From a virus, in IMG/VR virus record IMGVR_UViG_3300005264_000040, positions 113,769 to 177,768 of that record: a stretch of 64,000 nt of DNA. The stretch is one strand, 5' to 3'. Numbering within the stretch: position 1 is the stretch's first letter; each line of letters opens with the position of its first letter. Under the pieces are notes generated by a model. It made no database searches. It was not told the origin of the DNA and was given only the letters and a program-made list of their open reading frames with translations. Position numbers and translations under genes: made by a program. This document shows, piece by piece, positions 19,454 through 64,000 of the stretch.

Positions 19454-20641
19454 ATGAAAAAACAAACAGTTATATTTTTGAATAAAATGAAGTCTATCAT
19501 GTATAGAGCTTTCAGAAGTTTAAAAAATATTTATAACATAGAAATCACTCAACTTCAAGAAATTCCTAAAGATGAATCAAGGGAATTTACAACTATTTAC
19601 AAATCAGAGGATGCTGAAAAACTTAATGGTACTCCTTACACAGAATTTGCCTTAAAAAATCATAATCATGATGATTTATACTATAAGAAAACAGATACAG
19701 TACAATATGCTAAATATTTGATAGACGAAAATGGGAATCCTATATCACCAACTTCTCTTGCTCCTGTTAATCATATTCACAATGAATATTATAAAAAAGG
19801 GGAAAAAGTAAAATTTTCTTTCAGATTAGGCGGGAAAAAGTTTGAAGATTATGCAACTGCAAGCCACGAACATGAAGGATATGTAGGAATGCAAGAAATA
19901 GTTGATGCTACTTATAAACTTGGAGGACAACCAGGAACAGATTTTGCATTAGCTGAACATTCTCATGCAGATATATATCATTCTGTAGATGACACGGTTA
20001 TGGATGCTGCTGTTCTTGTAGATGCAACAGGGAAGAAATATACTGCAGATTTGTTAGCAAAGAAAGATCATGAGCATGATGATTTATATTATAGAAAAGA
20101 AGAATTTGACAAAATATTTTTGAAGAAAGGAATGCCATTTGGATTCACAGAAAAAGTTAAAGTGACAGTATATGATGTAGATGTTTCTTCAGCATCTATA
20201 CAATTAGAATCAGGTTCTTATGGAACAGATTCTTTGTCACATACATTTTTACAAATACCATCTTTTGCTCCATATGTAAGGCCAGAAGCAACTGCTGTGA
20301 CATCTTCTGTTTCTGGTCCTCACACTTATGATGCGAAAGTTATGTATCTAAAAATGTCTGTCACAGTAGGTAGTTATTCTAGTATTAATCTTCCTTCTTA
20401 TGTATCTAAAATAGTAGGAATAATTGGTTCAAGACAAGGAGTTAATGTAGGTTCTAATAATATTACCGGGTTCCAAAATATAGATACAGGTTATACTCCA
20501 ACTTCAGGAGGATATCAAGCACCTTTATTTATTACATGGACAAATGTTTCTAACCCTAAAAAAGTATTAGTATATGCATATCCTTTTGGTTTAGATTCAG
20601 GTGGTGCATCCTTGGTAGATTTAATTATATTTTATATATAA
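19454..20641 (+). CDS. Tail fibre protein 4 with His-x-His repeats
   Basis: The 395-aa protein repeats the fibre plan: a basic N-terminus, then HxH repeats at about 65-210 (NHNHDDLYY, NHIHNEYY, SHEHEGY, EHSHADIY, DHEHDDLYY), and a C-terminal tip of about 165 residues that is Gly/Ser/Thr-rich, beta-like and nearly free of charge. The HNHDDLYY motif is identical to one in fibre 1, which supports duplication within the cluster. The ATG 19454 follows AAAGGAG; the upstream ATG at 19412 is rejected because it lies inside fibre 3 with no site. The gene ends at a bidirectional terminator that closes the rightward operon. Confidence 0.82.
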   Translation: MKKQTVIFLNKMKSIMYRAFRSLKNIYNIEITQLQEIPKDESREFTTIYKSEDAEKLNGTPYTEFALKNHNHDDLYYKKTDTVQYAKYLIDENGNPISPTSLAPVNHIHNEYYKKGEKVKFSFRLGGKKFEDYATASHEHEGYVGMQEIVDATYKLGGQPGTDFALAEHSHADIYHSVDDTVMDAAVLVDATGKKYTADLLAKKDHEHDDLYYRKEEFDKIFLKKGMPFGFTEKVKVTVYDVDVSSASIQLESGSYGTDSLSHTFLQIPSFAPYVRPEATAVTSSVSGPHTYDAKVMYLKMSVTVGSYSSINLPSYVSKIVGIIGSRQGVNVGSNNITGFQNIDTGYTPTSGGYQAPLFITWTNVSNPKKVLVYAYPFGLDSGGASLVDLIIFYI

Positions 20642-32457: not shown

Positions 32458-32497
32458 ACACAAAACCCCCTTGTAGATTTTAATATTTCATATGGTT

Positions 32498-38538: not shown

Positions 38539-41500
38539 TCACTCCCAATGTAAAGAATTATCATTTTGAATTTCATCTAAATCTCTTGGATCATTAATTA
38601 CAACTTTTGCATAAGTATAATAAATATCTAATACACCTTCTGCGTTTTGATATGTTACATTGCCATTTTTAACAATACGTCTTACTATATCTTTATCTAA
38701 TAAATTTTGTACAAGTTTTTCATCTATTTTGTACAAATAAGCCATACTATAAGAATCTAAATTTTCTTCCATTCCAGGTAATGTAATGATTTTATCTGAA
38801 TAATTCACAAATTTTAAAGCTTCTACTTCTAATACCAAAACGACTTGTGAATCTATTTCATTTTTTTCTCTGTAGAAAATATGAACATCAGAATAAAGTT
38901 TCCTATAACTCATTGTAATTGGAATTGTTGTACTTATTATTTCATTTTGCAATTCTTTCTGAATCGCATATTTTGCATCTATAATTTGAGGTAATTTGTG
39001 ACTAAGTATAAGTTGTAATTCTACATTGTTTTGCAATATTCCATAATTACTGTTAAATGTGTTTATGTTTATATCATCAATTATCTGAGATTTAGAATAA
39101 ACACTTAATAATTTCATTTTTGGATTATCGTTTATAATCTGAGAATTTATTGTGATTGTTTTTTTGATTTCATATTGAAGTTCCATTAATATATTTTTAC
39201 TTTTGTTTATAGTTTTTAATATTGTTAAAGCTTTAATTTGGTTATTCCTAAACAAATGATAAATAGGTCTTTCTACAACTGTAGTATAAACATTTTTTTC
39301 TACGAGAGTTACTATTTTATTATGTGCTTCCAAAATTATACTTCTTAATTTTGAAGTTGCATATATTGCGTTTATTGTGTTTGATTTCATAATTTCTTTT
39401 AAATATAAATCCATTTGCAGATTGATCATCTTTCTCATATTCAAAATAATATCTGAGCAAAATTCAACTGCTGTTTTTGAATAAATAGAATTATTTGTTC
39501 CTATTCCTTTTGTGTCTAGGATTCCTAACAATTTAGAATAAGAACCAACTAACATTGTATCTTTCGCTATATATTGAGTTTCCAAATAAAGCTTTTTTCT
39601 TTCACTATGATAAATTGTGCATTCTATGTTTTTTTCATGTTTGACGATTTGTTTCACTCTGCTATTAAAACTTAAAAATTTGGTTTTTAAGAAGAATAGA
39701 TATAATTGATAATACTTAGGTAATTCCTTCAAAGGAGTTGTTCTTATTAAGAATTCCGGATAATCTCTAACATCGTTATAAATAGCCCACATTGAACCAT
39801 GTATAAAATAAATTTCCTTATTTGGATTATAACGAGAAAATTCAAACCAAGCTGGAGTTTCTACTCCATATACAAAAGAATTTGTTGTGTATTCTTGCTC
39901 AAAAAGCACATCAGTTCCTTCAAATTGCAAAACATGATAAGCTGGAATAGCAACTTTCTTTCCTCTTAAATTTACAGTTATCGTTGAAGAAGTTGGATTT
40001 ACAACGTTTGTTGAAGGAATATATTGAATTTCATAGGCTACAGCCCCTATTTCTATTTTATTCACAAAAGTAGATTTAGCTATTGCTTTTACATTTTTAT
40101 AACTAACAGTGTTAAATAGCAAATGTGTATTTAAATTATTATTTGATGAAAAGGTACCACACAAAATCCCATTAAGTTCTAAATTCCATTTTGCTGTAAT
40201 ATTTTCATATATATCCATGCCTAATTCTTGTGAAACTACTTTAAAAATATCAGCTAATATAGGAGCTTTTGGTCGTGGTAATATTATCATATCAGATTCA
40301 AAATAATTAGATATTTTAGATACTATAGAAGTATAGTAAATATCAATAAACGCTTTTTGTAAAGGTGAAACTTTTTTTAACCAAGAATAAATTCCTCTAT
40401 AATTATGATCGTCATAAAAAGCTACTTCAGATACTATCGTTTTCTTTTTTAAGAAAGTTAATGAAGTAGCAACATCCAAGTTGTTTTCTTGGGTTATTAT
40501 CCTTGCTATTTTAATATCTAAAAATTTCTGCATTCTATAAAACTTTGATATTATTGCTCCAATAAAAATAGAAACATCTTCTATTTTAGAAACTCCAACT
40601 TTTAAATCTTTTTTTGTTGATAAATTAGGCCACAAAACATATGCTGTGAAATCTATATTTGGTATGTATTTAGGAGCAAAAATATAAACACTAGCTGGAT
40701 GTGCTTTGTCTGTATCTGTTCCTACAGGTATGATTGCATTAGGATAGAAAATTTGATACCCTTTTAAAAATACAATATTTCCCCAAGTATCACCATGTCC
40801 TAAATAAATCAAACCTTCCATAAACTTGCTATATGAATGCAAAGAGTCATAAATTTCAAAAGAATCATACCCAGAAAAAGCTAATAATTTATAAGGATCA
40901 AACCATGTTCCGTAAAAATAAGAATAATTATATTTAAATGGTTCGGATATAGGAACTATTCTTTCTCCATCATCTGACGGTTTTACATATATTGTAGAAC
41001 GTCTTGTTCCGGATTTTGCAAAAACAGGCAGAAAATTCGGATTATATTGTACTATTGCTGGTTGTGGGAAAAAACCTTGCATGTAATCAGGCAAGAAACC
41101 AAATAAATCAGTCATTGATTTTTTATCTTTTACTGTTATTTCCTTTGTGCTTAAATCTATATTCAAAAGATATACAAATCTATCTGAAGTTAAAATTAAC
41201 CTTGTATTACCTACCCAAGCACCTACATAAGGTGTATTTAAAATTAAAGCAAAACCGTAATCATCTATTACGGTTGCAGGTCCCATATCATATCCAGTAA
41301 CATGCCAATCATTAAAGTCTTGCCCAAAACTTATATATCTTATTTCTTTTGAAGTATAGATAGAGTTAGATGTTGCATTTATAATCAACATCTTATTATT
41401 AGGAGAAAAAACTATAGGAGAACTTACCATGTAAGGTGGAAACCCACCTATTAACCTTACTTCTCCTGTTCCATTATTAATTTCTATCAAATAAGTTTCT

Positions 41501-41925
41501 GGAGCTAACCTGTTGAAAAAATACATATACCTTTCGTTAGAAAAGAAAGGCACAGGGATTAAACCATTTGGAATATCTATCTCAAATGGAAAGTCAAATC
41601 TGTAAGGAGTAAAAGATGTTAATGTTGGATCTTGAATTTCATCAAGTCTCAACAACGTAATATGATCAGAAGCTATTTCTAAAGTACCAGATACATTATT
41701 TCCTGAAACTTGTCCAGGAAAGTTTCCAATTCTATAAAAGTTTAAGTTCCTATCTTTTATGTAATCATATAATAAAGCATTAGGTTGTATCTCAATTTGG
41801 AATGTTCCAGTGCCAGCATATGGATACAACCACATTTTATTTAAATCATCACTGCTTCTAACTATACCTATATTTTCTTTCCCGGATACAAAATGGATAC
41901 GGTATCCACCAAAATTATATATCAT
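38539..41925 (-). CDS. Large fibre protein: propeller-like N-terminus, repeat region, shared C-terminal module
   Basis: The 1128-aa protein starts with a propeller-like beta region (about 1-400). The middle has diverged repeats of 14-20 residues (for example LLSVYSKSQIIDDINI, YGILQNNVELQLIL) and around 640-690 a small NPTSSTITVNLRGKKVAIPA module like that near the end of the other giant proteins. It ends KNGNVTYQNAEGVLDIYYTY then VVINDPRDLDEI, paralogous to the end of the 1988-aa protein. The start is ATG 41925, 8 nt after GAGG; an upstream GTG at 41934 overlaps the site. It leads the leftward fibre operon from control region B. Confidence 0.8.
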   Translation of the reverse strand: MIYNFGGYRIHFVSGKENIGIVRSSDDLNKMWLYPYAGTGTFQIEIQPNALLYDYIKDRNLNFYRIGNFPGQVSGNNVSGTLEIASDHITLLRLDEIQDPTLTSFTPYRFDFPFEIDIPNGLIPVPFFSNERYMYFFNRLAPETYLIEINNGTGEVRLIGGFPPYMVSSPIVFSPNNKMLIINATSNSIYTSKEIRYISFGQDFNDWHVTGYDMGPATVIDDYGFALILNTPYVGAWVGNTRLILTSDRFVYLLNIDLSTKEITVKDKKSMTDLFGFLPDYMQGFFPQPAIVQYNPNFLPVFAKSGTRRSTIYVKPSDDGERIVPISEPFKYNYSYFYGTWFDPYKLLAFSGYDSFEIYDSLHSYSKFMEGLIYLGHGDTWGNIVFLKGYQIFYPNAIIPVGTDTDKAHPASVYIFAPKYIPNIDFTAYVLWPNLSTKKDLKVGVSKIEDVSIFIGAIISKFYRMQKFLDIKIARIITQENNLDVATSLTFLKKKTIVSEVAFYDDHNYRGIYSWLKKVSPLQKAFIDIYYTSIVSKISNYFESDMIILPRPKAPILADIFKVVSQELGMDIYENITAKWNLELNGILCGTFSSNNNLNTHLLFNTVSYKNVKAIAKSTFVNKIEIGAVAYEIQYIPSTNVVNPTSSTITVNLRGKKVAIPAYHVLQFEGTDVLFEQEYTTNSFVYGVETPAWFEFSRYNPNKEIYFIHGSMWAIYNDVRDYPEFLIRTTPLKELPKYYQLYLFFLKTKFLSFNSRVKQIVKHEKNIECTIYHSERKKLYLETQYIAKDTMLVGSYSKLLGILDTKGIGTNNSIYSKTAVEFCSDIILNMRKMINLQMDLYLKEIMKSNTINAIYATSKLRSIILEAHNKIVTLVEKNVYTTVVERPIYHLFRNNQIKALTILKTINKSKNILMELQYEIKKTITINSQIINDNPKMKLLSVYSKSQIIDDININTFNSNYGILQNNVELQLILSHKLPQIIDAKYAIQKELQNEIISTTIPITMSYRKLYSDVHIFYREKNEIDSQVVLVLEVEALKFVNYSDKIITLPGMEENLDSYSMAYLYKIDEKLVQNLLDKDIVRRIVKNGNVTYQNAEGVLDIYYTYAKVVINDPRDLDEIQNDNSLHWE

Positions 41926-41956
41926 ATCCGCCACCTCGTTCTTTTCTTTTCACATT

Positions 41957-50068: not shown

Positions 50069-50099
50069 ATTATACCATATTTTTTAGTTTATTGCTTAA
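50069..50099 (-). promoter_or_regulatory. Promoter for the 50008 gene, inside the end of the tape measure gene
   Basis: On the minus strand TTAAGC (50099-50094), 19 bp, TATAAT (50074-50069) with TGG upstream. The -35 box covers the tape measure stop codon. A leader of about 60 nt follows. Confidence 0.7.
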
Positions 50100-53000
50100 T
50101 CGGTGGGGGCCTTTTTTTTATTTTTTGAATTAGATGTAGTTTGTTCATTTATAAGTTTATCTACTTTGTCAGTGTATTCTTTTACTGCATTAATTAGTTG
50201 AGTTGTGACTTTTGTATTTTCATCCATGCTATTTAATAATTGAGTAGTAGAATCTAACATAGATTTATAGTCTGGTATTTCAGATTCAGCTACTTCGTTT
50301 TCTAATTGATTATCTCCATGAATTATCATACTTGCAACAGTTCCAGCATTAACTTGGCCTGTTTCCGCTGATTCTCCTATATATCCATTTCTTGCTACTT
50401 CATCCAATCTTGAACCATAAGCATTTGCAAATGCATTTTGAAGTAAAGTTGTAATGTCTTCTGAACTTGCATTCTTTTTTATTAGGTCTATATATTTTGC
50501 AGCCATTTCATCTACATTTTCAACACCGAGTTTTGCAAACAAAGCTTTTGCTTCTCCTAAATCGGTGATATTTCCTTCCCCTAACTTTTCTAAAGCAGAA
50601 TACATTTGTATTGGAAGATTTAATCCTCCTTTTTTATATACTTCTACTTCTGATTTTAAAAGATCTTGCAATTCCTGCAAATTCTCAACACTAAAAATAG
50701 AGGAAGGAGCAGCAGCAAAATGCTCAAATGCAATTCTTTTTTCAGGGGTTTCAATTGTTTCTGCAACATTTGATATTTGTCTCATCATTTCTACCATTTT
50801 ATATGAATCTTGTTTGGATAATAACTTTGATAATTTAGGACCAAGGGAAGTTGCCAATTCTGATGTTGCTAATAAATCTTTTGATACTTTTAAGTTTTCA
50901 TTTCCTTTAATTTTTATAGATTCTTGTTCTCCGGGATTAATTTTGGTAATTTCTTGTGCAGCTTCTCTTCCTAATGCTAATTTTGCTAATCCTCTAGCTA
51001 CTTCTTCATCTATCCCGAATGTTTCTTTTAATTTATTGATAAAATCACCATATGTCTCAGATTCACCATATGCTTTTGCTATAAGGTATGATATTCTATT
51101 AAAATCTTCTTCGTTTTCTTCTAAAAATTTTTGTAATCCACTAACTTGGATTGGATTAAAGACGTTTTTGCCCCAAAAATCAGAACCTTTTTTCAAGTCA
51201 ATCATGACATTTCTAAAAGCTTTGTTAGCATAATTTTCTGCTGTAGTTAAAAGTTTATTTGTTTTATTTTTTAAATCTTCCAAAATTTTCACTGAACCTC
51301 TAGATATGACAGGAGTTATTGCACCCTTTTCGGTTAAACCTTTAACACCACCAAAAATAGTTGCTGTCACTGTTTCAAATGAGGACATATCTAATCCTTT
51401 TTCTGCGAATATTGAACCTAATTCTTTTCCAGCGCCTTCTGTAAAATATTTATTCATGTTTTCATATGAAATACCCATATCTTTTAATGTTTTTTGAAGG
51501 CTTTCTACCGAGTTTATTTTTCCTGTTTGAATTTGTTCAATTACTTGTTTTCTTTGGTCTTCGCTCATAAAACCGAGCAATTTATTTAAAGTATCTTTGT
51601 TGCTGCTTGCATAAGCATCCCTTATATTTTCTTGGGCTTCCTGTACATCTTTTCGTTTTCTTCTCATTATAGTTTTCAATTCATCTTCTTTTGTAATATT
51701 TATTCCTATGATAGCTTTTAAATTATCAAGGAAACTTCCTTTTAAATTGCCTTTTTCATCGTATTCAGCATTTGCGACAATATATTCTGCCTCATTTTCG
51801 GATATATTAAATTTAGAAGCTAATTCTTTAATAATTTGAGGTGTAACTTCTTTTTCTGTAGTTTCTATGACTTCATTTTTTGCGACATATCGAGCAGCTT
51901 CTGCAGCTTGCTCCAATGCTCCAGTTTTATATTTTTGATAGTCTTTTACTGAAGATAAAGAAAAACTTTTGATCGATGTTTGTATTATATTGAATTCTTC
52001 TTTTATTTTATTGAATACTGCTTTTGCTTGTTCAGGAGTTTTTGCATTTTTATATTCTTCTTCATAGGAATCGAGTTTATCTAAATATCCTTCTAATTTT
52101 GACACAAATTCTTTTACACCTTTTTTGTTTTTATATTCATCTGAATTTAAAGTTTCAATTAATTTTTTTGCAGTTTTTTTAGTGTAGTTTATAACAGAAT
52201 CTAAATCGCCTTGTGCATAATTAACTTCTTTTATCAAATTAGTATCAACAGTAGCGAAACTGGTACTGATTTTTGCTAGTTTGTCCATCGCAGTTTGATC
52301 TATACTTTCAGCAATTTTTTGTACATCTTGTGATAATCCTTTTATTTCATTTATAGCAGTTTCTGTTGCATTAGAACCAAGTTGATTTATCAATCCGCTT
52401 TGTGTAATGGATCCTAATGCCATGAAATTCAATTTAGTATTTATGTATTGATTAGTTTTCTCTTTTTCTTCTTCTTTTAATTGAACTTTTGCAGTAGGTG
52501 ATAATGTTTCTGTCCAAGACACTTGTTGAGTTGAAATATTCGCAACATTTAAAGCAGCTTTTATAACGTCGTTTTCATATTTTTCTTCTGCCATGATAAA
52601 TTCTTTATTTGTTGTAACTATAGCTTGAGATGCTTGCTTTGACAATTTATCTGTTTGAGGTTTTAATTGTCCATTTTGATCATAGAATCTTTCATAAATA
52701 TTATTTATAATAGAAGTAATATTTTTTTGTAAAGAATCAAGTTTAGACTCTGCTTCTTTTATTTTTGCACTATCTCCAGTTGCAAGAAGCTTTTTTGCTA
52801 TTTCAATTTCTTTTTTGAAGTCTGACACATCTAGGCCTGGAATTGACATTCCCATAGCTTGGACTTCAGCTTCCAAAGCCATTAATTTATCAACTGCAGA
52901 AAGGTTTTTCTGTCCTGCTTCGTCATTCATTAGTTTAAGATTTTTTATAGCTTTAGGAATTTGAGATATTTTATTTGTAATTTCCATAATATCACTAACA

Positions 53001-56000
53001 GATTTAGTGCTATAATCAATTTGCAAATTCGGAATACCTTGTATAGTATCATTGTATGTTGCGACACTTCTTAATAATTCTGGTATAGCATTTGCATATA
53101 CATCTTTATATTTCATCATTAATTCGTCATTTAAACCTGTAACTGCGAATGTTTTTGTTCCAGATTGTTCATTGACAAAATAAGCTAAACCTGTATTTCC
53201 TAACATCATAATATTTACATCGTTCTTTTGTATTTTTGCATTGTAATCATTTAATTTTTCTACAAATTTTGACATTATAGTTCCTTCAACGCCTAAATTC
53301 TTATTGAAAGAATAAGCTTCTTTCATTGCTTCGTTTTGCCTATTTGCAATTTTTTCTGTCAAAGATTGGAATTCGTCTTTCAAAGATTTAAAGTCATCCA
53401 TTATACCTATTTTATTTGCTGCATTAAATGCTTTTCCTATGTCACCCATTATTTGAATTAATCTATTAAAATCTTCATCGCTTAATACATCTTTATTTAA
53501 AATTGCATAAGCTTCTTTAATATTGTTAGTGATACCTTCCTTCAATGGCTTTTCATATTGTTTTAATACTTCTTTTCGCGAATTTTCTTTTTCTTGTTTT
53601 TTAAATTCTGCAATTTTCTTTTCTGTTGCGGATACATCTATACCTGTTGTTTTTGCTGAAGATATCAAATCTTCTAAAGCACCTAATTCATAAGTTCTTA
53701 TAGCTTTGTTAGATTGTGATTGTACTTGATTAAATAAATCTTCTATTTTATTTTGTAAATCTTTTTTATCAGCAGGAGTTAAATTCCCTTCATTTATTTG
53801 TTTAGCTAAAGCTTGTATGCTTTTCATTTCTGGAGTACTTGGCGGTTGTTTCAATTTCTCTGCATTTTTAGAAGTGACATCTAAAGTTGTATCTACTTCT
53901 TCAAGTAATTTATCAAGCTCTTTATTAGTTTTTTTAGTAGAAATTATAACATTTATTTGCTGCTTTAATTTCTGGAGTTTTTGTTTAAATTCTGCAGTTT
54001 TATCTGTTTCTTCTAATTTATTTAGTATATTAATATCATTATCAATAGTATCTACAAATTTCAATAGGATTTCCTTATATTGTTCAGGGAAATTCTTAAG
54101 TCCTTCTGCATTATCAACAAAGAATTGGTTTATAGTTTGAATATCTAATCCTATTTGTTTTATAAGATTTTTCTTATCTTCATCGGATAAAGTGCCACTC
54201 CCTAAATTAGCAAGTTTTGCATCTATGTCTTTTACTAATTTAGAACTAGGACTAAATCCTTGTTCCAATAATTTTTTCTTTGCTGTCTTTAATAATTGTT
54301 TTATTTTCTCTTGTGTTTCAACATCTATTCCGGTTTCTTTTGATATATTTTCAAGATTTAACACAGACCCTAAAAGTTTAGCCGCTGATTTTTGTTTATC
54401 TTCATCAGAAATTGCTTTTACAAAAGTATCTAAATTTTTCTGTAATTGTTCAATTGTTTCTACAGTATATTCTGAAATATCAACAGGCTTAGATGCTTTC
54501 GCTATAGTTGTGTCTAATTCGTATATTTTATCTTTTAATGTTTCCGTTTGAGTGTCAAGACTTTTATCTATGACACTACCCATATCTTTAAGTCTTGACA
54601 AAATATCTTTTCTAACGCTTTCGTCTGTGATTTTAGCAGCCTTTTCGGTTGCAGTTTGTATAGTTTCAAATAATTCTTTTCCTGCTTTTTGTATTTCTTC
54701 TACGTTCCCTGTAGAGACTATTTCCTGGTATTTTTTTACTTCTTCTTTTATTTGTTCTAAGTCTATTGTTTTTGCGACTTTGTTTAAATCTTCTTGTTTT
54801 TTACTCAAATCCTCTTTGTTAGCGGATAAAAATTCAGTAAGTTCATCAATTTTTGATATCATTCCGTCAGGTGTAGAAATATTTTGTAATTGGGAAGATT
54901 CTGTTCCCAATAATTTTAAGTTAGCCTCTATCTCTTTCAATTTCTTTTGTGCTTCTTCTCTTTGTTTTTTATCTTCAATTTTTTGAGTATCAACAAAGTC
55001 TTCTTTTAACTTTGTCAAAGCCTCTTTTATTTCTTTGTTTAAAGTATCGTAATTTCCATTTTCAAGATATTCCTCTGCATGATTTATTAAATCTTCATAC
55101 GCTGATAGATCTAATTCTCCAGGATTTTTTATAATTTCTTTTACTCTGTTGATTGTTTTAGTAGCTATATTTTTTGCGTCTTTAGAATTGTCTTTTAAGA
55201 TATCTTTAGAAACTTCAGTGTATAATGATTCAAGTTGTTCAAGTTTATCTGCATAGTCTCCTAAACTCAAATTCCCTTTTTGAAGTTGAGTTGCTAAATC
55301 CTTTATCTTTGAAATTCTTTTATCTGTTTTGGTTAAATCATCTTTTCTTGTGTTCAAGACATCCTTTAAAGAATCAATAGTTCCAGATGAAATAATGTCA
55401 GATTTGACAGATTCCATTTCCTGATATTTTTTCATTATTTCTTCTTTTAATTTTTTCATGTCAATTTTGGAAGGATCTACTTTTAAAGTAGTTAGCATAT
55501 CAGATAATTTTTCTGTCATCAACTCATCAAATTCTTCTGTGCCTATCTCATCTTTATGCTTGTCCAGAAAATCCTGTATTTGATTAAATTCATCTTTTAT
55601 GATATTAAATTGACTTGTTTCATCTCTTCCTTTATATGTTTCATATTTTTCTTTGAATTCTTTAATGAGATTTTTCCCTGTTTCAGAGGACAATTTATAT
55701 TTGTTTTTTATGATTCTATCTACTTCATCTTGTAATTCCTTAGGTAATTGTCCTTTTATTTCCTGAAGAGTTTGAACGCCGTGGGTTATTCCACCACGTG
55801 TGCCTTTTTCTAAAGCACCAATAACGGAATCAATTTGTTTTTGTATATTTTCAGGAACTAAATTAGAATTCATTTGTTGATATGCAAAACTAGCAACATT
55901 AGCAAATTCTTCTAGACCGTTCGCTTTTAATTCTTTGTTTGCAACTAATAAAGTAGATTTATCTCTTATATTAAATAATGCATTAAAAGCAGCATATTTC

Positions 56001-59000
56001 TTACTTGTTTTTGCTTTTTGATTGTATATATCTTGATAAGGTTGAATTATGGATAATATTTCATCCTTTCTAGCAGTGTCTGACATTCCGGCTGCTATTT
56101 TCACTATTTCATTAATTGCTCCGGCTTTTTGTTCTACAGTGGCATTTTGATCTTCAAGAGTGGTTATTAAGTTTTCTATTTTAGCATATTTTTCTTTATC
56201 TTTATCAGTAATTAAATTCTTTTCAATATTTCTAAATTTGGAAGTAAATTCCTTTCCTACAGTTCCATATTCTGTAGCTAATTCTCTTCCAGCTTGTGAC
56301 ATTCCTGTTTGTTTTAAAGCATTATCTATGTTCTTATTTATTCCTTCAATTTGTTTATCTACAGTTTCTAAATCAGATTTCATAGAATCTATTTTATCGT
56401 GAATTTTAGAAATTACATCCTTTAATTTGTTTTTAGTTTCGGTAAGCTGAGTTTTGATTTTAGAAGTATCAAATCCAGAATCTTTTATTTTTTCTAATAA
56501 AGCTTCGTCTTTTGTCAATAAAGCAATAAATGAATTTGCTGTTTGAGCATCTTCTTTTTTAGGTATATAATTGTTTGCTGTAATTGTATTAACCCAATCA
56601 TTTACTTTAGAAATATCTTGTTTAATTTTATTTGTAATTGCATCAAACTCTTCTTTAGTTATTTTAGCACCAGCAAATATCTTCTGCTCAGTTACTTGCT
56701 CTTTTAAATCAGCTGGGAGTTCCATTTTTGATAATTGTTCAAGCGCTGTACCTACTAATTCTTTGTTAGAAGGTGCAATTAAATTCGATTGCTGAACTAT
56801 GGAATTACCTTGCTCAAGAATATTTTTAAGTTTTTTTGTATCTAATTGTTCGGCGCCTACAACTTCTGCAAGTTGTTGCTGGTATCTTTGTAGATTTTTA
56901 TTAAAAATTTGTTTGGATACAGGCTGCGATAAAGCAGATTTTGGTTGTACTATTTCAAAACCTGCAACTTTTTGTTTTACATCTTCTGTGTTTAATTTTA
57001 TATAATCTCTTATTTCTTTTGTAATTTTTATAATTGCTTGACGACCTTTCTCGTCAATCACATCTTCATTCGCAATATTAATTGCATTATTCAATTTTAC
57101 TGCAATTTGTTTAGATATTCTCGCAACTTCTTCAAAATCTCCATTTTTAGCAGCAGGTGTTAATTTGTTTTGCAAATCATCTATTATAGAATTGAAATTT
57201 TTAATAACTCTTGTTCCAAAAATTTCTGTATTAGAAGCTAAGAAACCTGGAATTTTATTTATATCATTAGGAACTGTTTCGATTGTTGCAGGTTGTGTCC
57301 CAGTTACAGTTTGCCCGGTTGCTATTTGTTTAATTATATCTTCTGCTTGTTTTAAATCCATTGAACTAGCTATATTATTCTGGGCCGCAACTAAAGCTGT
57401 TCCGTATTTTCCTGCTTCTAATATATTCCTTTTGTATTTGCTTAGAGTTAAAGTTGTATTATCTCCTACGAAAGTATTTCTCTTTGACACAGTTGCTTTA
57501 TATGCATTTATATAAGCATTAGTTTGCTTGTCAGAACTAGTTCCTATTTGTGCTATTGCTCTTGTTCTTGCATCGACCAAATTCATTAAATCTTCGCCAA
57601 CACCTGCAGCAATATCTGTGAAACGTTCTCCTAGAGTAACATTTCCTGTTTCACCAGGAATTATAACTTTTCCTTCCGGAGTTTTAAGTGATGTTCCTTG
57701 AGTATTTAATATTTTATCAATTTCCATAAAATTCATAGAACCGATTTCTTGCTTTAAAGCTTCTTTTTGTTCTGGAGTTAAAGTTTCATAACGTTCTAAA
57801 TCAGCGCCTCCACCAAAAATTGGTATTTTTCTAAAAATATCTGCCATATTTTCCCCTAATTTTAGGGAGCCTTGTCTGACTCCAGATTTTAAATCAGACC
57901 AGAATTTAGAGGCACTTGTTCCTAGTCTTCCCCAGAAACCATATTTTTTTAATAAGTATTGATATTGGTCAGCTTCTTTTCTCCTTTCACTTTGCATAAG
58001 TGTTCTATTAGCATTAATCATATTGCTTCTTGAAAGAGAAGAAGCCATCATAACTGCGGTTTCATAATCCATTCCATATTGATTCATCAAATAATTTACT
58101 GAGAAATCTTTAAAACTTAGTTTATCTTTATAAGGTAACCATGCTTGATAAATTTGGTCACGCATTCCGGCAGAAAGTACATTACTTACGATATCAGGAC
58201 TTGCGGTTTGTGTCAAGATAGAAGTCAAGGCTTGGTTTGATGTAATCCCCATAGAACTAGCATTCGCTGCACCTATAGCAGAATAATTTGTATATAGTTT
58301 CATTCTTTCTTCAGGTGTATTAGCTTGTTCTAATTGTTGATTGAATCGTGCAAAAGCTTGTTTGTTGAAAGAATATTTTCCTTTTTCTTTATCATACTCC
58401 AGGAAAGCAGCCATAGCAGATAATGGTAAAGAATTTGCACTGCCAACGTTTCCTTGAAGCATATTTGACATCATGCCGGTAAAACCTGACATGAATTTTT
58501 CAACTGCAATTTGTCTTCCACCAAGTTGCTCTATTATTTGATTTCCTTCTTGTGTCATTGCATAATTGGAGAACAGAGCTTGACCTAAAGCAGTAGTAGC
58601 TGCAGCAGATTTCCCAGACATACCAGTTTGCCTTAAAGCAGTTGCATATTGTACATTTTGTTGTGCCATTGCTTGAGGGTTCATTCCTACTTGTTCTCCA
58701 ATAAACTTTGTTCTATATGCCAAATCAGATGTAAAATTAATATCTGTAATTCCTAATTTTTTATATTCACCCATAAGTTTAGTGGCATCTTCCAATGACA
58801 TATGCAAAGCACCACCAACTTCTTTTACTGTTTCGACTAAATCTTTAAACTTTTTCTTAAATTCCTTTGTATCCCTAACCATACCAACTAAATCATATTG
58901 ATTTAATAAAGGCAGCAAGTCTTTTTTTACTACATCTTTTGGGATTATTTCAGCCATATCAGCAGCAACATCTTCTATTTGTTTATAATACCTTTCTAAA

Positions 59001-59704
59001 TCTTTTAATTTCATTATAGGGCCATTTTTATTTGGAGCAATAATAGAAGTAAGATAAGGACGCAAATCTTTTACATCTGACAAACCAGAAATAGCATCAG
59101 ATAATCTCACCATTCCCGTACCTATCGTACCGCCAAGAGTAGCACCTAAAAACTCTCCACCTAATGCTCCTACAGCTGTTCCTACTGGTCCTAATAAAGA
59201 GCCTAAAGCAGCTCCAGCATATCTACCTGCAAAGCCTCCTACTCCCATTCCAATAATAGATGCTCCTGCATCTCTTATGTTTTCATCTAATCTTAAATTA
59301 ATTGCTTTGTTATATTCGGTAGGAGTTATATTAAAAGCAGTTTTTGAATATAAAGGTGCATCATATAAACTGCCGTAATAACTTAAAGGATTATAAGGCC
59401 CTAAACCCATTCCTGCGTTTTGAGCATAGAAAGGATTAGCAGGAGTAAGAACACCAGAAACTGTTCCATAAGTGTTGCTCATAGACATAGTCATTACATT
59501 AACAAGTTTATCTAATTTAGAATTTAATTGTTGCATAGATTGATTTAAAGCTAAAGAATCAACTGAAGGCCCTATTTGAAGAGGTTGAGCGGCGGACGAC
59601 GCCATAGGTATAGAAGTAACCGGGGCTTGATATACAGGCCCCGTGGATGGTATGCTCATTTCTTGTGCTTGCTGCATCAATAATGGTTGGTTAGGATCTA
59701 TCAT
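50096..59704 (-). CDS. Tape measure protein
   Basis: The 3202-aa protein is the longest in the window. It is overwhelmingly helical and Lys/Glu/Asp-rich with heptad-like stretches. A Gly/Ala hydrophobic segment lies at about 150-205 (IIGMGVGGFAGRYAGAALG...), as is common in tape measure proteins that enter the membrane during ejection. Repeating units such as LEKGTR..., SDEDKKNLIKQI and related Leu/Lys helices fill the centre. It directly follows the overlapping chaperone frames, the usual order. ATG 59704 follows AGGTGG. At about 0.15 nm per residue it would set a tail near half a micrometre. No lytic domain was recognised. Confidence 0.93.
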   Translation of the reverse strand: MIDPNQPLLMQQAQEMSIPSTGPVYQAPVTSIPMASSAAQPLQIGPSVDSLALNQSMQQLNSKLDKLVNVMTMSMSNTYGTVSGVLTPANPFYAQNAGMGLGPYNPLSYYGSLYDAPLYSKTAFNITPTEYNKAINLRLDENIRDAGASIIGMGVGGFAGRYAGAALGSLLGPVGTAVGALGGEFLGATLGGTIGTGMVRLSDAISGLSDVKDLRPYLTSIIAPNKNGPIMKLKDLERYYKQIEDVAADMAEIIPKDVVKKDLLPLLNQYDLVGMVRDTKEFKKKFKDLVETVKEVGGALHMSLEDATKLMGEYKKLGITDINFTSDLAYRTKFIGEQVGMNPQAMAQQNVQYATALRQTGMSGKSAAATTALGQALFSNYAMTQEGNQIIEQLGGRQIAVEKFMSGFTGMMSNMLQGNVGSANSLPLSAMAAFLEYDKEKGKYSFNKQAFARFNQQLEQANTPEERMKLYTNYSAIGAANASSMGITSNQALTSILTQTASPDIVSNVLSAGMRDQIYQAWLPYKDKLSFKDFSVNYLMNQYGMDYETAVMMASSLSRSNMINANRTLMQSERRKEADQYQYLLKKYGFWGRLGTSASKFWSDLKSGVRQGSLKLGENMADIFRKIPIFGGGADLERYETLTPEQKEALKQEIGSMNFMEIDKILNTQGTSLKTPEGKVIIPGETGNVTLGERFTDIAAGVGEDLMNLVDARTRAIAQIGTSSDKQTNAYINAYKATVSKRNTFVGDNTTLTLSKYKRNILEAGKYGTALVAAQNNIASSMDLKQAEDIIKQIATGQTVTGTQPATIETVPNDINKIPGFLASNTEIFGTRVIKNFNSIIDDLQNKLTPAAKNGDFEEVARISKQIAVKLNNAINIANEDVIDEKGRQAIIKITKEIRDYIKLNTEDVKQKVAGFEIVQPKSALSQPVSKQIFNKNLQRYQQQLAEVVGAEQLDTKKLKNILEQGNSIVQQSNLIAPSNKELVGTALEQLSKMELPADLKEQVTEQKIFAGAKITKEEFDAITNKIKQDISKVNDWVNTITANNYIPKKEDAQTANSFIALLTKDEALLEKIKDSGFDTSKIKTQLTETKNKLKDVISKIHDKIDSMKSDLETVDKQIEGINKNIDNALKQTGMSQAGRELATEYGTVGKEFTSKFRNIEKNLITDKDKEKYAKIENLITTLEDQNATVEQKAGAINEIVKIAAGMSDTARKDEILSIIQPYQDIYNQKAKTSKKYAAFNALFNIRDKSTLLVANKELKANGLEEFANVASFAYQQMNSNLVPENIQKQIDSVIGALEKGTRGGITHGVQTLQEIKGQLPKELQDEVDRIIKNKYKLSSETGKNLIKEFKEKYETYKGRDETSQFNIIKDEFNQIQDFLDKHKDEIGTEEFDELMTEKLSDMLTTLKVDPSKIDMKKLKEEIMKKYQEMESVKSDIISSGTIDSLKDVLNTRKDDLTKTDKRISKIKDLATQLQKGNLSLGDYADKLEQLESLYTEVSKDILKDNSKDAKNIATKTINRVKEIIKNPGELDLSAYEDLINHAEEYLENGNYDTLNKEIKEALTKLKEDFVDTQKIEDKKQREEAQKKLKEIEANLKLLGTESSQLQNISTPDGMISKIDELTEFLSANKEDLSKKQEDLNKVAKTIDLEQIKEEVKKYQEIVSTGNVEEIQKAGKELFETIQTATEKAAKITDESVRKDILSRLKDMGSVIDKSLDTQTETLKDKIYELDTTIAKASKPVDISEYTVETIEQLQKNLDTFVKAISDEDKQKSAAKLLGSVLNLENISKETGIDVETQEKIKQLLKTAKKKLLEQGFSPSSKLVKDIDAKLANLGSGTLSDEDKKNLIKQIGLDIQTINQFFVDNAEGLKNFPEQYKEILLKFVDTIDNDINILNKLEETDKTAEFKQKLQKLKQQINVIISTKKTNKELDKLLEEVDTTLDVTSKNAEKLKQPPSTPEMKSIQALAKQINEGNLTPADKKDLQNKIEDLFNQVQSQSNKAIRTYELGALEDLISSAKTTGIDVSATEKKIAEFKKQEKENSRKEVLKQYEKPLKEGITNNIKEAYAILNKDVLSDEDFNRLIQIMGDIGKAFNAANKIGIMDDFKSLKDEFQSLTEKIANRQNEAMKEAYSFNKNLGVEGTIMSKFVEKLNDYNAKIQKNDVNIMMLGNTGLAYFVNEQSGTKTFAVTGLNDELMMKYKDVYANAIPELLRSVATYNDTIQGIPNLQIDYSTKSVSDIMEITNKISQIPKAIKNLKLMNDEAGQKNLSAVDKLMALEAEVQAMGMSIPGLDVSDFKKEIEIAKKLLATGDSAKIKEAESKLDSLQKNITSIINNIYERFYDQNGQLKPQTDKLSKQASQAIVTTNKEFIMAEEKYENDVIKAALNVANISTQQVSWTETLSPTAKVQLKEEEKEKTNQYINTKLNFMALGSITQSGLINQLGSNATETAINEIKGLSQDVQKIAESIDQTAMDKLAKISTSFATVDTNLIKEVNYAQGDLDSVINYTKKTAKKLIETLNSDEYKNKKGVKEFVSKLEGYLDKLDSYEEEYKNAKTPEQAKAVFNKIKEEFNIIQTSIKSFSLSSVKDYQKYKTGALEQAAEAARYVAKNEVIETTEKEVTPQIIKELASKFNISENEAEYIVANAEYDEKGNLKGSFLDNLKAIIGINITKEDELKTIMRRKRKDVQEAQENIRDAYASSNKDTLNKLLGFMSEDQRKQVIEQIQTGKINSVESLQKTLKDMGISYENMNKYFTEGAGKELGSIFAEKGLDMSSFETVTATIFGGVKGLTEKGAITPVISRGSVKILEDLKNKTNKLLTTAENYANKAFRNVMIDLKKGSDFWGKNVFNPIQVSGLQKFLEENEEDFNRISYLIAKAYGESETYGDFINKLKETFGIDEEVARGLAKLALGREAAQEITKINPGEQESIKIKGNENLKVSKDLLATSELATSLGPKLSKLLSKQDSYKMVEMMRQISNVAETIETPEKRIAFEHFAAAPSSIFSVENLQELQDLLKSEVEVYKKGGLNLPIQMYSALEKLGEGNITDLGEAKALFAKLGVENVDEMAAKYIDLIKKNASSEDITTLLQNAFANAYGSRLDEVARNGYIGESAETGQVNAGTVASMIIHGDNQLENEVAESEIPDYKSMLDSTTQLLNSMDENTKVTTQLINAVKEYTDKVDKLINEQTTSNSKNKKKAPTD

Positions 59705-61241: not shown

Positions 61242-61243
61242 AT

Positions 61244-61277
61244 GCTTAAAAAACGAGAATATTTTTGGTATATATAA
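61244..61277 (+). promoter_or_regulatory. GCTTAAAAA / TTGGTATATATAA promoter 1
   Basis: GCTTAAAAA at 61244-61252 and TTGGTATATATAA at 61265-61277. The predicted RNA would start near 61281, directly at a hairpin (61281-61311: GTTCA/TGAAC outside, GACTTC/GAAGTT inside). Two further copies with the same two boxes lie at 61720 and 62617. Confidence 0.72.
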
Positions 61278-61320
61278 TATGTTCAGTGACTTCTATAGGA
61301 AGTTCTTGAACAAAATTTAA

Positions 61321-61373
61321 GCCTGTAGGATTCTTTCCCACATTCCTGCAGGCGATATAACGGAGGTGGGAAT
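61321..61373 (+). promoter_or_regulatory. Stem-loop/pseudoknot translation element 1
   Basis: Stem GCCTGTAGGA (61321-61330) with TCCTGCAGGC (61344-61353), one U-G wobble, and a 13-nt loop. Loop bases TTCCCAC (61335-61341) are complementary to GTGGGAA (61366-61372), which covers the last G of GGAGG (61362-61366) and the spacer to ATG 61374. When the loop pairs, the start region is masked. Confidence 0.78.
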
Positions 61374-61586
61374 ATGTTGTTTAAGAAAAAAGAAGCCCCT
61401 AAAATGGGGCAAAAATTTGTGAAACTCTCGGTCGAAAAGGCCGAGGGTTTCGAGCTCGGCCTAAGAATGGCCGGTTTCGAGAAAAGCAGCACCCATAAAA
61501 AGGTGCTGCGTGAAATCCCCTGGGGGTACAGGGGATTTGTAGTAGATCTTGATGAAAAGATCTACTATATTGTAATAGGGGTGTGA
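61374..61586 (+). CDS. Small basic protein encoded in a chain of hairpins
   Basis: The 70-aa product (MLFKKKEAPKMGQKFVKLSV...) is basic with a beta-like end (GYRGFVVDLDEKIYYIVIGV); no family is recognised. The coding sequence is almost tiled by hairpins: GCCCC/GGGGC (61395-61410), GGCCGAG/CTCGGCC (61439-61461), GCAGCACC/GGTGCTGC (61486-61509), AAATCCCCTG/CAGGGGATTT (61513-61538), TAGTAGATCTT/AAGATCTACTA (61540-61567), and the terminator at its stop. ATG 61374 is 7 nt after GGAGG, as in two later genes here. The first hairpin is 21 nt into the gene, leaving the start region free. Confidence 0.8.
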   Translation: MLFKKKEAPKMGQKFVKLSVEKAEGFELGLRMAGFEKSSTHKKVLREIPWGYRGFVVDLDEKIYYIVIGV

Positions 61587-61602
61587 TACCCCTTTCTTTT
61601 TT
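61578..61602 (+). terminator. Terminator overlapping the end of the 61374 gene
   Basis: GGGGT/ACCCC (61578-61592) spans the stop codon and is followed by TTTCTTTTTT. A second hairpin, TTTTTTACAA/TTGTAAAAAA (61597-61622), follows at once. Confidence 0.75.
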
Positions 61603-61612
61603 ACAAATTGCA

Positions 61613-61649
61613 TTGTAAAAAAATAAAAAAATATTGGTATATATATATA
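61613..61649 (+). promoter_or_regulatory. TTGGTATATATA promoter 2 (weaker -35)
   Basis: TTGGTATATATATATA begins at 61634; the expected -35 place holds TTGTAAAAA (61613-61621), close to GCTTAAAAA. The transcript would run into the 61682-61736 hairpin. Confidence 0.5.
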
Positions 61650-61654
61650 GGTAA

Positions 61655-61742
61655 AGGGCGCCGCCCTGAATATTTTATTATCCTGTGCATTTAAATGTCT
61701 AATAATAATTTGAAAAAACGCTTAAAAATGCACAGGGTTTTG
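61655..61742 (+). ncRNA. Possible short structured RNA ending at a long-range hairpin
   Basis: Downstream of promoter 2 are GGGCG/CGCCC-type pairs near 61656 and then perfect 11-bp arms CCTGTGCATTT (61682-61692) and AAATGCACAGG (61726-61736), followed by GTTTTGG. The right arm overlaps the -35 box of the next promoter, so the RNA and the next promoter may interfere. No open reading frame with a binding site is present. Confidence 0.4.
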
Positions 61743-61752
61743 GTATATATAA
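61720..61752 (+). promoter_or_regulatory. GCTTAAAAA / TTGGTATATATAA promoter 3
   Basis: GCTTAAAAA at 61720-61728 and TTGGTATATATAA at 61740-61752. From G of the first box to the -10 TATATA is 24 bp, as in promoter at 62617. Confidence 0.72.
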
Positions 61753-61754
61753 AT

Positions 61755-62017
61755 TGTGAGCAGGACTTCCTTTAGAGGTCCTGCATATCTCCCTGGAAGT
61801 CAGGGAGCGGAACTGCGAGACATCGCAGGCGGAAAACTCCTCTACTTTTTATAAGTAGGGCAAGGGAGGCTCTAATATTAGGGCTTCCCGGTAGCGAGTA
61901 CGCCGCAGCGCTCTGCCTCGTAGGGAAGCTGTACTGATTTTCAGGGAGAAGTCCTGGGCCACGGGACTATAAACAATGTGGAAGTGCCCGTATAAGGGCG
62001 CGTTAAACAAAAACCGG
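61755..62017 (+). ncRNA. Long structured leader RNA
   Basis: The stretch has no credible gene but contains a run of helices: GCAGGAC/GTCCTGC (61760-61784), CTCCCTG/CAGGGAG (61789-61807), CTGCGA/TCGCAG (61813-61828), CTACTT/AAGTAG (61842-61858), a nested set closed by GCTTCCC/GGGAAGC (61883-61929) with CGAG/CTCG and GCAG/CTGC inside, AGTCC/GGACT (61950-61968) and GCCC/GGGC (61986-61999). It leads into the pseudoknot element before the next gene. It may be a regulatory leader, or a separate RNA whose 3' part is the mRNA. No match to a named family could be made by eye. Confidence 0.6.
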
Positions 62018-62069
62018 CCCCACAGGAATATTGCTCTCAGTCCTGTTGGGGTGACATGGAGGTGAGAGC
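62018..62069 (+). promoter_or_regulatory. Stem-loop/pseudoknot translation element 2
   Basis: Stem CCCCA-CAGGA (62018-62027) with TCCTG-T-TGGGG (62041-62051), one bulged T, and a 13-nt loop. Loop GCTCTCA (62033-62039) is exactly complementary to TGAGAGC (62063-62069), the 7 nt between GGAGG (62058-62062) and ATG 62070. Confidence 0.82.
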
Positions 62070-62564
62070 ATGAAGTTATTTTTAAGGGTTCTGAACGAAC
62101 CCTCAAAATTCCCGGAGGAAGTTATTATAGCTTCCCTCCGGGAAGCTTTTAAGTACGGCCGTCGGTATGAGGCCGTCATAAAAAAAATGTTACAGGACCC
62201 GGAATTCCGGGTTCCTGTAACAATCAAAATCCCCTCAAGGATGAGGGGATTAGTCCGCAAGGATGCGGAAGAAAAAAAGGGCACAGGCAGGAGTGCCCGC
62301 CCTGGCTCAGCCAGGGTATTAAAGAGCACTGGAAGGTGCTCTATATACATCAAATCTTACGGGGTTGTTCCCGCGAGATTTGATGTAAGAGGCACTGTCG
62401 TAATGATAGAGCCTCTTAAAAAAGGAACCGCAGCATATGCGATTCCTACAGAATTTTTCTTCGGAGCTGTGCGCTCCGGAGAAAAATATCTAAACCTAGA
62501 TGAAGTACCTTTCAAAAGGTACTATCATCGAGGTAAAAGTATTGAAATCATAGCCGGTAAATAG
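62070..62564 (+). CDS. Basic protein encoded in a chain of hairpins
   Basis: The 164-aa product is basic in its centre (KIPSRMRGLVRKDAEEKKG) and beta-like later (ARFDVRGTVVMIEPLKK); no family is recognised. Its coding sequence is tiled by hairpins, such as AGGGTTC/GAACCCT (62085-62103), TTCCCGGAGG/CCTCCGGGAA (62109-62144), TGTTACAGGA/TCCTGTAACA with an inner CCCGG/CCGGG (62188-62222), AATCCCCTC/GAGGGGATT (62228-62251), ACATCAAATCT/AGATTTGATGT (62347-62386), and a 14-bp stem with U62461-G62479 wobble (62454-62486). ATG 62070 is 7 nt after GGAGG. The terminator's 5' arm is made of the last codons. Confidence 0.83.
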   Translation: MKLFLRVLNEPSKFPEEVIIASLREAFKYGRRYEAVIKKMLQDPEFRVPVTIKIPSRMRGLVRKDAEEKKGTGRSARPGSARVLKSTGRCSIYIKSYGVVPARFDVRGTVVMIEPLKKGTAAYAIPTEFFFGAVRSGEKYLNLDEVPFKRYYHRGKSIEIIAGK

Positions 62565-62593
62565 TCCTGCCTACCGGCTATGATTCTTTTTTT
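62546..62593 (+). terminator. Terminator formed from the end of the 62070 gene
   Basis: Perfect 14-bp stem AATCATAGCCGGTA/TACCGGCTATGATT (62546-62585), with the stop codon in the loop, followed by CTTTTTTT. Confidence 0.9.
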
Positions 62594-62616
62594 ATATTGT
62601 GTATTATAATATTATC

Positions 62617-62649
62617 GCTTAAAAACACATCAAATCTTGGTATATATAA
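62617..62649 (+). promoter_or_regulatory. GCTTAAAAA / TTGGTATATATAA promoter 4
   Basis: GCTTAAAAA at 62617-62625, then TTGGTATATATAA at 62637-62649. It follows the terminator by 24 bp, so it opens a new transcript. Confidence 0.72.
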
Positions 62650-62654
62650 AATGC

Positions 62655-62799
62655 AAAGGGAGTTAAATACCCTGAGCAGACAGCCTCAGTATCGTCCGAC
62701 TGAGGTGGTGATGGTAAGGACGACAGGCTCAACTCTACTGGCCTGTATAAATATACGGTAGGGTAGCGGTTGCTCACGACCGCTATATAAATAAGTGAG
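62655..62799 (+). ncRNA. Structured 5' leader of the 62862 gene
   Basis: Hairpins follow one another: GGGAGT/ACCC (from 62657), CCTCAGT/ACTGAGG (near 62684-62705), ACAGGC/GCCTGT (near 62724-62747), GTATA/TATAC and TAGCGGT/ACCGCTA (near 62764-62786). No reading frame with a binding site fits. It leads into the anti-Shine-Dalgarno stem-loop. Confidence 0.5.
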
Positions 62800-62861
62800 G
62801 ATTGCGCGGACTGACCTCCGACAGTTCGCAATGCAATCAAATTTTAAAAGGAGGGGTTGTC
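62800..62861 (+). promoter_or_regulatory. Stem-loop with anti-Shine-Dalgarno loop (element 4)
   Basis: Stem TTGCG/CGCAA (62802-62806 with 62827-62831) and GACTG/CAGTT (62809-62813 with 62822-62826) carry the loop ACCTCCGA. Loop CCTCC (62815-62819) is complementary to GGAGG (62850-62854) in the ribosome binding site of the TTG-started gene at 62862. The idea is the same as in elements 1-3, but the target is the binding site itself. Confidence 0.68.
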
Positions 62862-63209
62862 TTGAAGAAGATCAAATGGATTTCAAGGCATCCTCTCCCA
62901 GCTGAAGCTCTTGAAGCTTTGGCTAAGGAATTAAATGTTTCTGCATCCGATATTGTTGTAGATGCAGAAAACATTTTATTCCCAGCCGATGCTGATGGAG
63001 CTTATGCAGCTTTAAAAGAAGCTGCAGCTGGATATGACGCTGTGGGTTTTGTTGCCCCAGCTCAATTGACAGCTGCTCTTCTTAGAGCTGCAGCAGCTGG
63101 GAGAGGCCTTGGAACCAAAGGGTTCTTTGTAATCTCTGTGCCAAAAATGGCACCTGATGGGATTACAAGAACCTTTGTATTCGATCACATAGAAGTATTT
63201 GATATGTGA
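62862..63209 (+). CDS. Small WISRH-type protein of unknown function, encoded in hairpins
   Basis: The 115-aa protein begins LKKIKWISRHPLPAEALEAL and continues with alternating strands and helices (GYDAVGFVAPAQLTAALLRAA), ending FVFDHIEVFDM. This W[IV]SRH...L plan resembles small uncharacterised proteins of Firmicutes plasmids and phages (from memory). The start is TTG 62862 behind AAAGGAGGGG; no ATG alternative exists. Coding hairpins include TTTCTGCATC/GATGCAGAAA (62938-62970), GTGCCA/TGGCAC (63138-63153) inside GGTTCTT..GTAATC/GATTACAAGAACC (63121-63173), and GTATTCGATCACATA/TATGTGATTGAATAC (63177-63217), the last running past the stop and with a G-U wobble. Confidence 0.78.
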   Translation: MKKIKWISRHPLPAEALEALAKELNVSASDIVVDAENILFPADADGAYAALKEAAAGYDAVGFVAPAQLTAALLRAAAAGRGLGTKGFFVISVPKMAPDGITRTFVFDHIEVFDM

Positions 63210-63489
63210 TTGAATACAGGTTCCTCGGAGGCGAGGTTGCTCAGAACCTCGATGCCGAAATCTGGGCTCTGGAGTAGGTCTCTCCAGAATAATATAAAAA
63301 GACAAGCATAATCCTATACGATGACGGTATAGGACTATGCTAGGGTGGCAGGTCTTTTTCGAGGCCTGTTTTCTTCTTGTCACCCGAAGGTCCGAAAAGG
63401 GCCTAACAGAAAACAGGTGGGCTTAACGCCCTTTCTTATTTGAGAAGGTTGTCATTGATAGCCTTCTGAAATAAGAAAAATAATTCCAA
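63210..63489 (+). ncRNA. Structured RNA between two hairpin-coded genes
   Basis: The stretch has no credible gene and no obvious promoter. It holds CGAGGTT/AACCTCG (63232-63251), TCTGGAG/CTCCAGA (63268-63288), AGCATA+TCCTATAC with GTATAGGA+TATGCT (63305-63341) closed by AAAAAGAC/GTCTTTTT, CCTGTTTTCT/AGAAAACAGG (63365-63417) with inner AGGTCC/GGGCCT, and TTTCTTATTT/AAATAAGAAA (63432-63478) with an inner GAAGG/CCTTC. It probably belongs to one long transcript with the flanking genes. Confidence 0.58.
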
Positions 63490-63541
63490 CCTCACAGGAA
63501 TCTTACTCCCAGTTCTGTGAGGAGACATTGGAGGTGGGAGT
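63490..63541 (+). promoter_or_regulatory. Stem-loop/pseudoknot translation element 3
   Basis: Stem CCTCACAGGA (63490-63499) with TTCTGTGAGG (63513-63522), one G-U wobble, 13-nt loop. Loop ACTCCCA (63505-63511) is exactly complementary to TGGGAGT (63535-63541), the 7 nt between GGAGG (63530-63534) and ATG 63542. Confidence 0.82.
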
Positions 63542-63886
63542 ATGTTAAAAAAAATTTTTTTTATTTTAATCTTTGCAGCCGCAATTGCGGCTGCATTTGT
63601 CTTCGGCTATGCCTATGGCAAAGCCGAAGGCAGAGAGCAAACCGCAGCATACTTGCAGCTGCGGTTTGAAGATAAAATAAAAGAAACCGCATCCCAGGCA
63701 TGGGATGACGGTTTCGAAGAGGGTTCCATCGCAGGATGGAACCTTCTTTTGTCCTTCCTTGAATGGAAGGATATTACAAGCGTTGAAGAAATTCAACGCT
63801 TGGTTAATTCGGAAGCTGTAACTTTAACTTCCGAATTAAAAAATTTCCAGGAGCAGCAGAAAAAACTGTTTCTGGAATCTCACTAA
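63542..63886 (+). CDS. Small membrane-anchored protein, encoded in a chain of hairpins
   Basis: The 114-aa protein has an N-terminal membrane segment (about 5-24, IFFILIFAAAIAAAFVFGYA) followed by a helical, acidic, Gln-rich part, so it probably sits in the cell membrane with the rest in the cytoplasm or outside. No family is recognised. Hairpins in the codons include a perfect 20-bp palindrome (63575-63594), CTTCGGCT/AGCCGAAG (63601-63629), AAACCGCAGC/GCTGCGGTTT (63639-63667), CAAGCGTTGAA/TTCAACGCTTG (63777-63802) and TTAATTCGGAAG/CTTCCGAATTAA (63804-63839). ATG 63542 is 7 nt after GGAGG. Confidence 0.8.
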   Translation: MLKKIFFILIFAAAIAAAFVFGYAYGKAEGREQTAAYLQLRFEDKIKETASQAWDDGFEEGSIAGWNLLLSFLEWKDITSVEEIQRLVNSEAVTLTSELKNFQEQQKKLFLESH

Positions 63887-64000
63887 ACAAAACCGCGCCG
63901 TAACTCCGAGGCGCTCCTAAATATCGGAGCTGTAATATGTAGGGGAGGTTCCTACACACGCAGCACACTACTGCGCGGACAATTAAAGTGTCGGAGTTTG
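63887..64000 (+). ncRNA. Structured RNA running off the window
   Basis: No gene is seen. Helices include CTCCGA/TCGGAG (about 63906-63931), GTAGG/CCTAC (about 63939-63955), CGCAG/CTGCG (about 63960-63976) and GACA/TGTC near the end. The pattern shows that the hairpin-rich region continues past 64000. Confidence 0.45.

Follow-up and report, generated by a model that had tools for sequence, protein, structure and literature searches.

Pervasive folding of protein-coding RNA, beyond anything that the codons themselves call for, is known from the plus-strand RNA viruses as GORS and there extends over whole RNA genomes. The genomes of the single-stranded RNA phages such as MS2 (Leviviricetes, recognised by an RNA genome with maturation, coat and replicase genes) likewise carry many local hairpins within their coding sequence and hold their translation starts in structure, and the GOLLD and ROOL RNAs provide examples of long, highly folded phage RNAs that are non-coding. 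On a smaller scale, the translation-regulating H-type pseudoknots of T4 gene 32, rpsO, the alpha operon and preQ1-II pair the loop of a leader hairpin at the ribosome site.

We report a cluster of four protein genes, built as chains of hairpins, at the right end of a double-stranded DNA phage record. GORS and the single-stranded RNA phage genomes are the nearest described phenomena, and each fails one defining feature. As in GORS, the coding RNA folds better than controls that keep both protein and codon usage (z -6.6 to -13.8, and -13.5 in a related phage), but the structure belongs to a few genes of one promoter class, takes the form of perfect local hairpins and occupies the last 2.7 kb of 177.8 kb of a DNA phage rather than an entire RNA genome. 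The genes of MS2 fold at -0.34 to -0.38 kcal/nt at 49-52% GC, whereas genes 2 and 4 of the cluster and the related-phage gene lie between -0.45 and -0.49 kcal/nt at 41-50% GC, and perfect stems of at least 7 bp make up 18% of the cluster as against 3% of MS2; genes 1-4 match none of the maturation, coat or replicase families. In contrast to GOLLD and ROOL, the folded stretches are protein genes, and a comparison of the cluster with Rfam gave nothing at the gathering score (the best hit, which lies on the opposite strand, has E 0.049). We discounted an origin from repeat elements (Rickettsia palindromic elements, for instance), the hairpins not being copies of one repeat. A search of the mostly open-access literature found no DNA phage with such hairpin-chain genes, and our prevalence screen covers this phage and a handful of other phage genomes.

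The window, the whole stretch of 64,000 nucleotides analysed here, closes a 177,768-base IMG/VR record that is classed as linear and is perhaps a fragment. Folding begins at 61.28 kb of the window and continues to 64 kb, where the record stops inside the cluster; the GC content climbs from about 30 to 44% at this contig end. Among the proteins of the phage are a tail sheath, a terminase and a multisubunit RNA polymerase of its own. The polymerase, the portal and the terminase are distant kin of Salmonella phage Arash proteins, the first two being also distantly akin to those of Vibrio phage D181. Outside the window, at record positions 36607-37626, this large myovirus carries a retron-type reverse transcriptase gene (PADLOC RT_III-A, E 1.7e-69; NCBIfam retron St85, E 4.8e-57, below the cut-off of that model), and a search for a diversity-generating template repeat near it found none. 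Within the window, very large minus-strand frames at 24019-32463, 32566-38532 and 38539-41934 (2814, 1988 and 1131 aa) contain recurring LQYS/LQHS-like motifs, and a frame of 3202 aa lies beside them at 50096-59704.

The original prediction placed hairpin upon hairpin in four genes of this region and held that nothing similar lay in the 61 kb to the left. Both claims stand: the hairpins lie in those genes at the positions given, and a sliding fold of the entire record returns a single outlier, its end, the last 2.7 kb being the sole abnormal part. In windows of 150 nt the final 1.8 kb folds at about -57 kcal/mol and the sequence elsewhere at about -20, the last two blocks of the record reaching -37.5 and -57.6 kcal/mol. 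The stems had been put at 7-15 bp and measure mostly 8-17 bp, with one of 20, and their loops are mostly of 3-6 bases. A comparison with codon-shuffled genes had been proposed as one check. When synonymous codons are swapped within each gene, so that protein and codon usage are unchanged, gene 1 (61374..61586, 70 aa; this and all further features of the cluster are on the plus strand), gene 2 (62070..62564, 164 aa), gene 3 (62862..63209, 115 aa) and gene 4 (63542..63886, 114 aa) fall far below their controls, at z -6.6, -13.8, -9.6 and -13.3 respectively, and two neighbouring genes give +0.7 and +0.3. Among 429 open frames of this phage and several relatives, only five stand apart, at z -8.4 to -17.3, with the next at -4.2; they are the four cluster genes and a 228-aa metallopeptidase-like gene of a related phage.

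The prediction that the non-coding parts are equally folded holds in that leaders and spacers are folded as well, but it fails for the two promoter spacers that could be separated out. Against plain shuffles, the genes, leaders and spacers of the cluster give z-scores from -2.6 to -18.8; these include the long leader of gene 2 (61756..62069, z -7.6), the leader of gene 3 (62656..62861, z -3.5), the spacer and leader of gene 4 (63210..63541, z -9.7) and the stretch at the record end where the cluster is interrupted (63887..64000, z -2.6). The promoter spacers at 61242-61280 and 62590-62655 are unfolded (z +0.5 and +0.4), and the interval 61587-61755, which holds two promoter-like sites, is moderately folded (z -3.0). 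A terminator-like hairpin with a 14-bp stem and a T-run overlaps the end of gene 2 (62546..62593). Translation initiation needs a weakly paired gene start, and in every gene the opening 18 nt are rich in A/T (6-33% GC) and paired less than the remainder.

The promoter-like sites set these genes apart from the rest of the phage. Site 1 (61244..61276), which reads GCTTAAAAA ... TTGGTATATATA, lies in an unfolded spacer immediately left of the first hairpin; the same two elements recur at site 3 (61720..61751) and, again in an unfolded spacer, at site 4 (62617..62648), and site 2 (61634..61645) matches TTGGTATATATA without GCTTAAAAA. Four of the five TTGGTATATATA sites of the record are inside the cluster. 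The fuller pattern GCTTAAAAA-N11-18-TATATA has three occurrences in the record, always within the cluster, and a single one in the related contig, immediately upstream of its structured gene, where about zero would be expected in either; in both phages the full motif is thus found only ahead of structured genes. The remainder of the genome uses TATGNTATAAT, with 23 sites against 3.35 expected and none in the cluster. As the one motif is confined to the structured genes and the other absent from them, these genes form a separate promoter class, which we infer to be an early class. The viral contigs searched hold no match to the promoter and leader patterns, and a match of the leader pattern in one bacterial genome, inside a transporter-like gene, was dismissed as chance.

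Two further arrangements were seen near sites of this type. An 11-bp inverted repeat at 61682-61736 (CCTGTGCATTT / AAATGCACAGG) has a 33-base loop containing the GCTTAAAAA box of site 3 and may represent an operator or else a readthrough hairpin. Outside the window, at record positions 24254-24800, the gene with the fifth TTGGTATATATA site is followed by four small tandem units, in each of which AAGGAGG, a short start and small hairpins are present; these units have no Rfam match at the gathering score.

At three of the four gene starts the loop of a leader hairpin pairs over 7-8 bp with the segment from the Shine-Dalgarno sequence to the start codon. The gene 1 pseudoknot (61321..61376) consists of stem 1 at 61321-61330/61344-61353 and stem 2, over the ribosome site, at 61335-61341/61366-61372; those that end the leaders of gene 2 (62018-62027/62041-62051 and 62032-62039/62063-62070) and gene 4 (63490-63499/63513-63522 and 63504-63511/63535-63542) are built alike. 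A comparison of these three leaders within this phage reveals compensatory double changes at three positions of stem 2 and four of stem 1, in addition to wobbles, so that two interleaved stems, the second at the ribosome site, are maintained as in an H-type pseudoknot. A scan of the whole record finds the arrangement at these three starts and in one match made of A/T alone, and for gene 3 the best loop match to GGAGG is of 5 bp, no better than chance. The pseudoknots, predicted from sequence alone, differ from the regulatory examples named above in being common to three unrelated adjacent genes and in being followed by fully folded coding sequence.

The genes of the cluster carry Shine-Dalgarno sites, and the start codon of gene 3, here corrected, is the TTG at 62862. 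Its product matches PHROG 26169, of unknown function (E 7e-4), gene 4 has a hydrophobic N-terminus with weak spanin-like matches, and genes 1-4 have no convincing family in Pfam or PADLOC. A single-sequence structure model of gene 2 is half-confident (pLDDT 69.6) and gave no match in a fold search; the model of gene 3 is poor. The viral contigs and GenBank phages searched contain no relatives of genes 2 and 3 or of the upstream gene at 60659. Relative to the rest of the genome, the cluster proteins are enriched in alanine, glycine and arginine and depleted in asparagine, and the reading-frame phases of the stem pairs are mildly biased (259:228:201); given this composition and the mildness of the bias, the amino acids have probably been moulded by the structure as well.

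A search with the phage polymerase led to a 29.5-kb contig, IMGVR_UViG_3300020567_000242, whose polymerase is 37% identical and in which a folding scan flagged one place. There, at 17926-18612, a frame of 228 aa is a hairpin chain from its sixth codon to a terminator-like hairpin, with a codon-permutation z of -13.5 where its neighbours give -0.7, -3.2 and +0.3. It has a short leader without a pseudoknot, and its protein, which contains an HEVAH motif and weakly matches a putative metallopeptidase domain of Pfam (E 0.0011, short of the curated cut-off), is not kin to the genes of the window: the trait is shared and the proteins differ. The GenBank phages searched hold no relatives of this gene, and Arash, D181 and partial relatives have no comparable folded stretch. 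Some 500 bases beyond it, at 19080-19680, the contig has a non-coding stretch rich in short palindromes around GGTTAAAACC.

Which molecule is selected, RNA or DNA, cannot be told from folding energy alone, since a stem without mismatches has the same stability on either strand, and the antisense z-scores of the cluster genes under codon permutation are as strong as the sense ones. The original prediction argued for the plus-strand RNA on the ground that every wobble pair checked was G-U. We do not accept the argument in that form, as A-C mismatches are present (A-C at 62084/62104 and 63311/63335, C-A at 62428/62442). In counts that do not favour G-U, taken over the cluster and the related-phage gene together, odd pairs within stems are G-U to A-C 6:3 with strict flanks (p 0.25) and 15:4 with relaxed flanks (p 0.01); the excess survives on the relaxed count and is not significant on the strict one, and the argument taken alone is weak. 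The conclusion itself, selection on the plus-strand RNA, is supported mainly by the unfolded promoter spacers, the covarying pseudoknots at ribosome sites and the recurrence beside the same promoter motif in the related phage. Selection on the messenger RNA is the best reading of the excess structure, and it is very probable that RNA structure itself is under selection.

A DNA-level cause, in which the hairpins act in single-stranded DNA or stem from palindrome-making template switching by a polymerase or a retron-type reverse transcriptase, would account for the likeness of sense and antisense z-scores and could draw on the reverse transcriptase gene of this phage. Such a cause should not spare promoter spacers, build pseudoknots at ribosome sites, leave gene starts A/T-rich and less paired or yield the G-U excess of the relaxed count, and the 29.5-kb fragment of the related phage holds no reverse transcriptase; we regard it as improbable. 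It is very improbable that the cluster is an artefact, whether a chimeric end of the contig or a folded non-coding RNA that happens to contain open frames. Its position at the contig end and the rise in GC would fit, but TTGGTATATATA is present elsewhere in the same phage, the Shine-Dalgarno sites and PHROG match favour coding, and the related phage has such a gene, for the HEVAH protein, inside its contig, so that a chimeric end or an accident is unlikely.

As to purpose, the explanation that we favour is that the hairpin chains would protect the transcripts of a small regulon from single-strand RNases and RNA-guided defences, a reading to which we give a probability of roughly 40%. Its starting points are computed: excess structure, its absence from promoter spacers, its association with a promoter motif, covarying pseudoknots and recurrence in a related phage. 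The phage lineage would transcribe this regulon from its own promoter class, and the messages, leaders and coding sequence alike, would have been selected to fold as nearly unbroken chains of short local hairpins, synonymous codons and in part amino acids being picked for pairing while the first codons stay A/T-rich; in three genes a pseudoknot would cover the segment from Shine-Dalgarno sequence to start. Little single-stranded RNA would be left for RNases, toxin RNases or RNA-guided defences (Cas13, type III CRISPR), and the transcripts may thereby outlast others, with ribosomes opening the hairpins one by one and the pseudoknot perhaps setting the start of translation. In nucleus-forming jumbo phages, exported transcripts are struck by Cas13 and type III CRISPR (review, PMC12908238), and attack of this kind is a plausible pressure on the present phage, if it is nucleus-forming or exposed to such systems. 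Counting against protection are the small number of genes so built, the restriction of the observed covariation to the leaders and not the coding stems, the equally strong antisense z-scores, the non-significant strict count of G-U to A-C and the moderate folding of 61587-61755 despite its promoter sites. The structure might instead time translation, the chain slowing ribosomes and, with the pseudoknots, holding a set of small takeover proteins at low levels or off until the message is opened by a helicase, an RNA-binding protein or a ligand. The covarying pseudoknots at three of four start sites and the single promoter class speak for this, but control of initiation needs no structure across entire coding sequences and spacers, the related-phage gene lacks a pseudoknot, and ribosomes readily unwind short hairpins; we think it unlikely. 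Binding of the folded transcripts by a phage RNA-binding protein, for packaging into virions or transport as in the single-stranded RNA phages, would suit wholly structured transcripts and a folding density above that of MS2, yet no hairpin or loop sequence that a protein could read is seen to be shared and a Pfam scan of 68 phage proteins showed no RNA-binding domain, which makes it distinctly improbable.

Following the protective reading, we suggest tentatively that some DNA phages may encode 'armoured' mRNAs, protein genes that selection has reshaped into unbroken chains of hairpins, hard to attack for defences that cut RNA or are RNA-guided; such a message might, no less tentatively, be the RNA counterpart of modified phage DNA or of the phage nucleus. 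DNA-phage genes that fold more tightly than an RNA-phage genome, under one promoter class and in two diverged phages, are a coding form that we have not found in the literature. If their role is to resist RNA-targeting immunity, they would represent a passive counter-defence at the level of RNA; if it is the timing of translation, they would add a new way of controlling genes. In both cases these genes allow a test of how much a coding sequence can bend to a second code.
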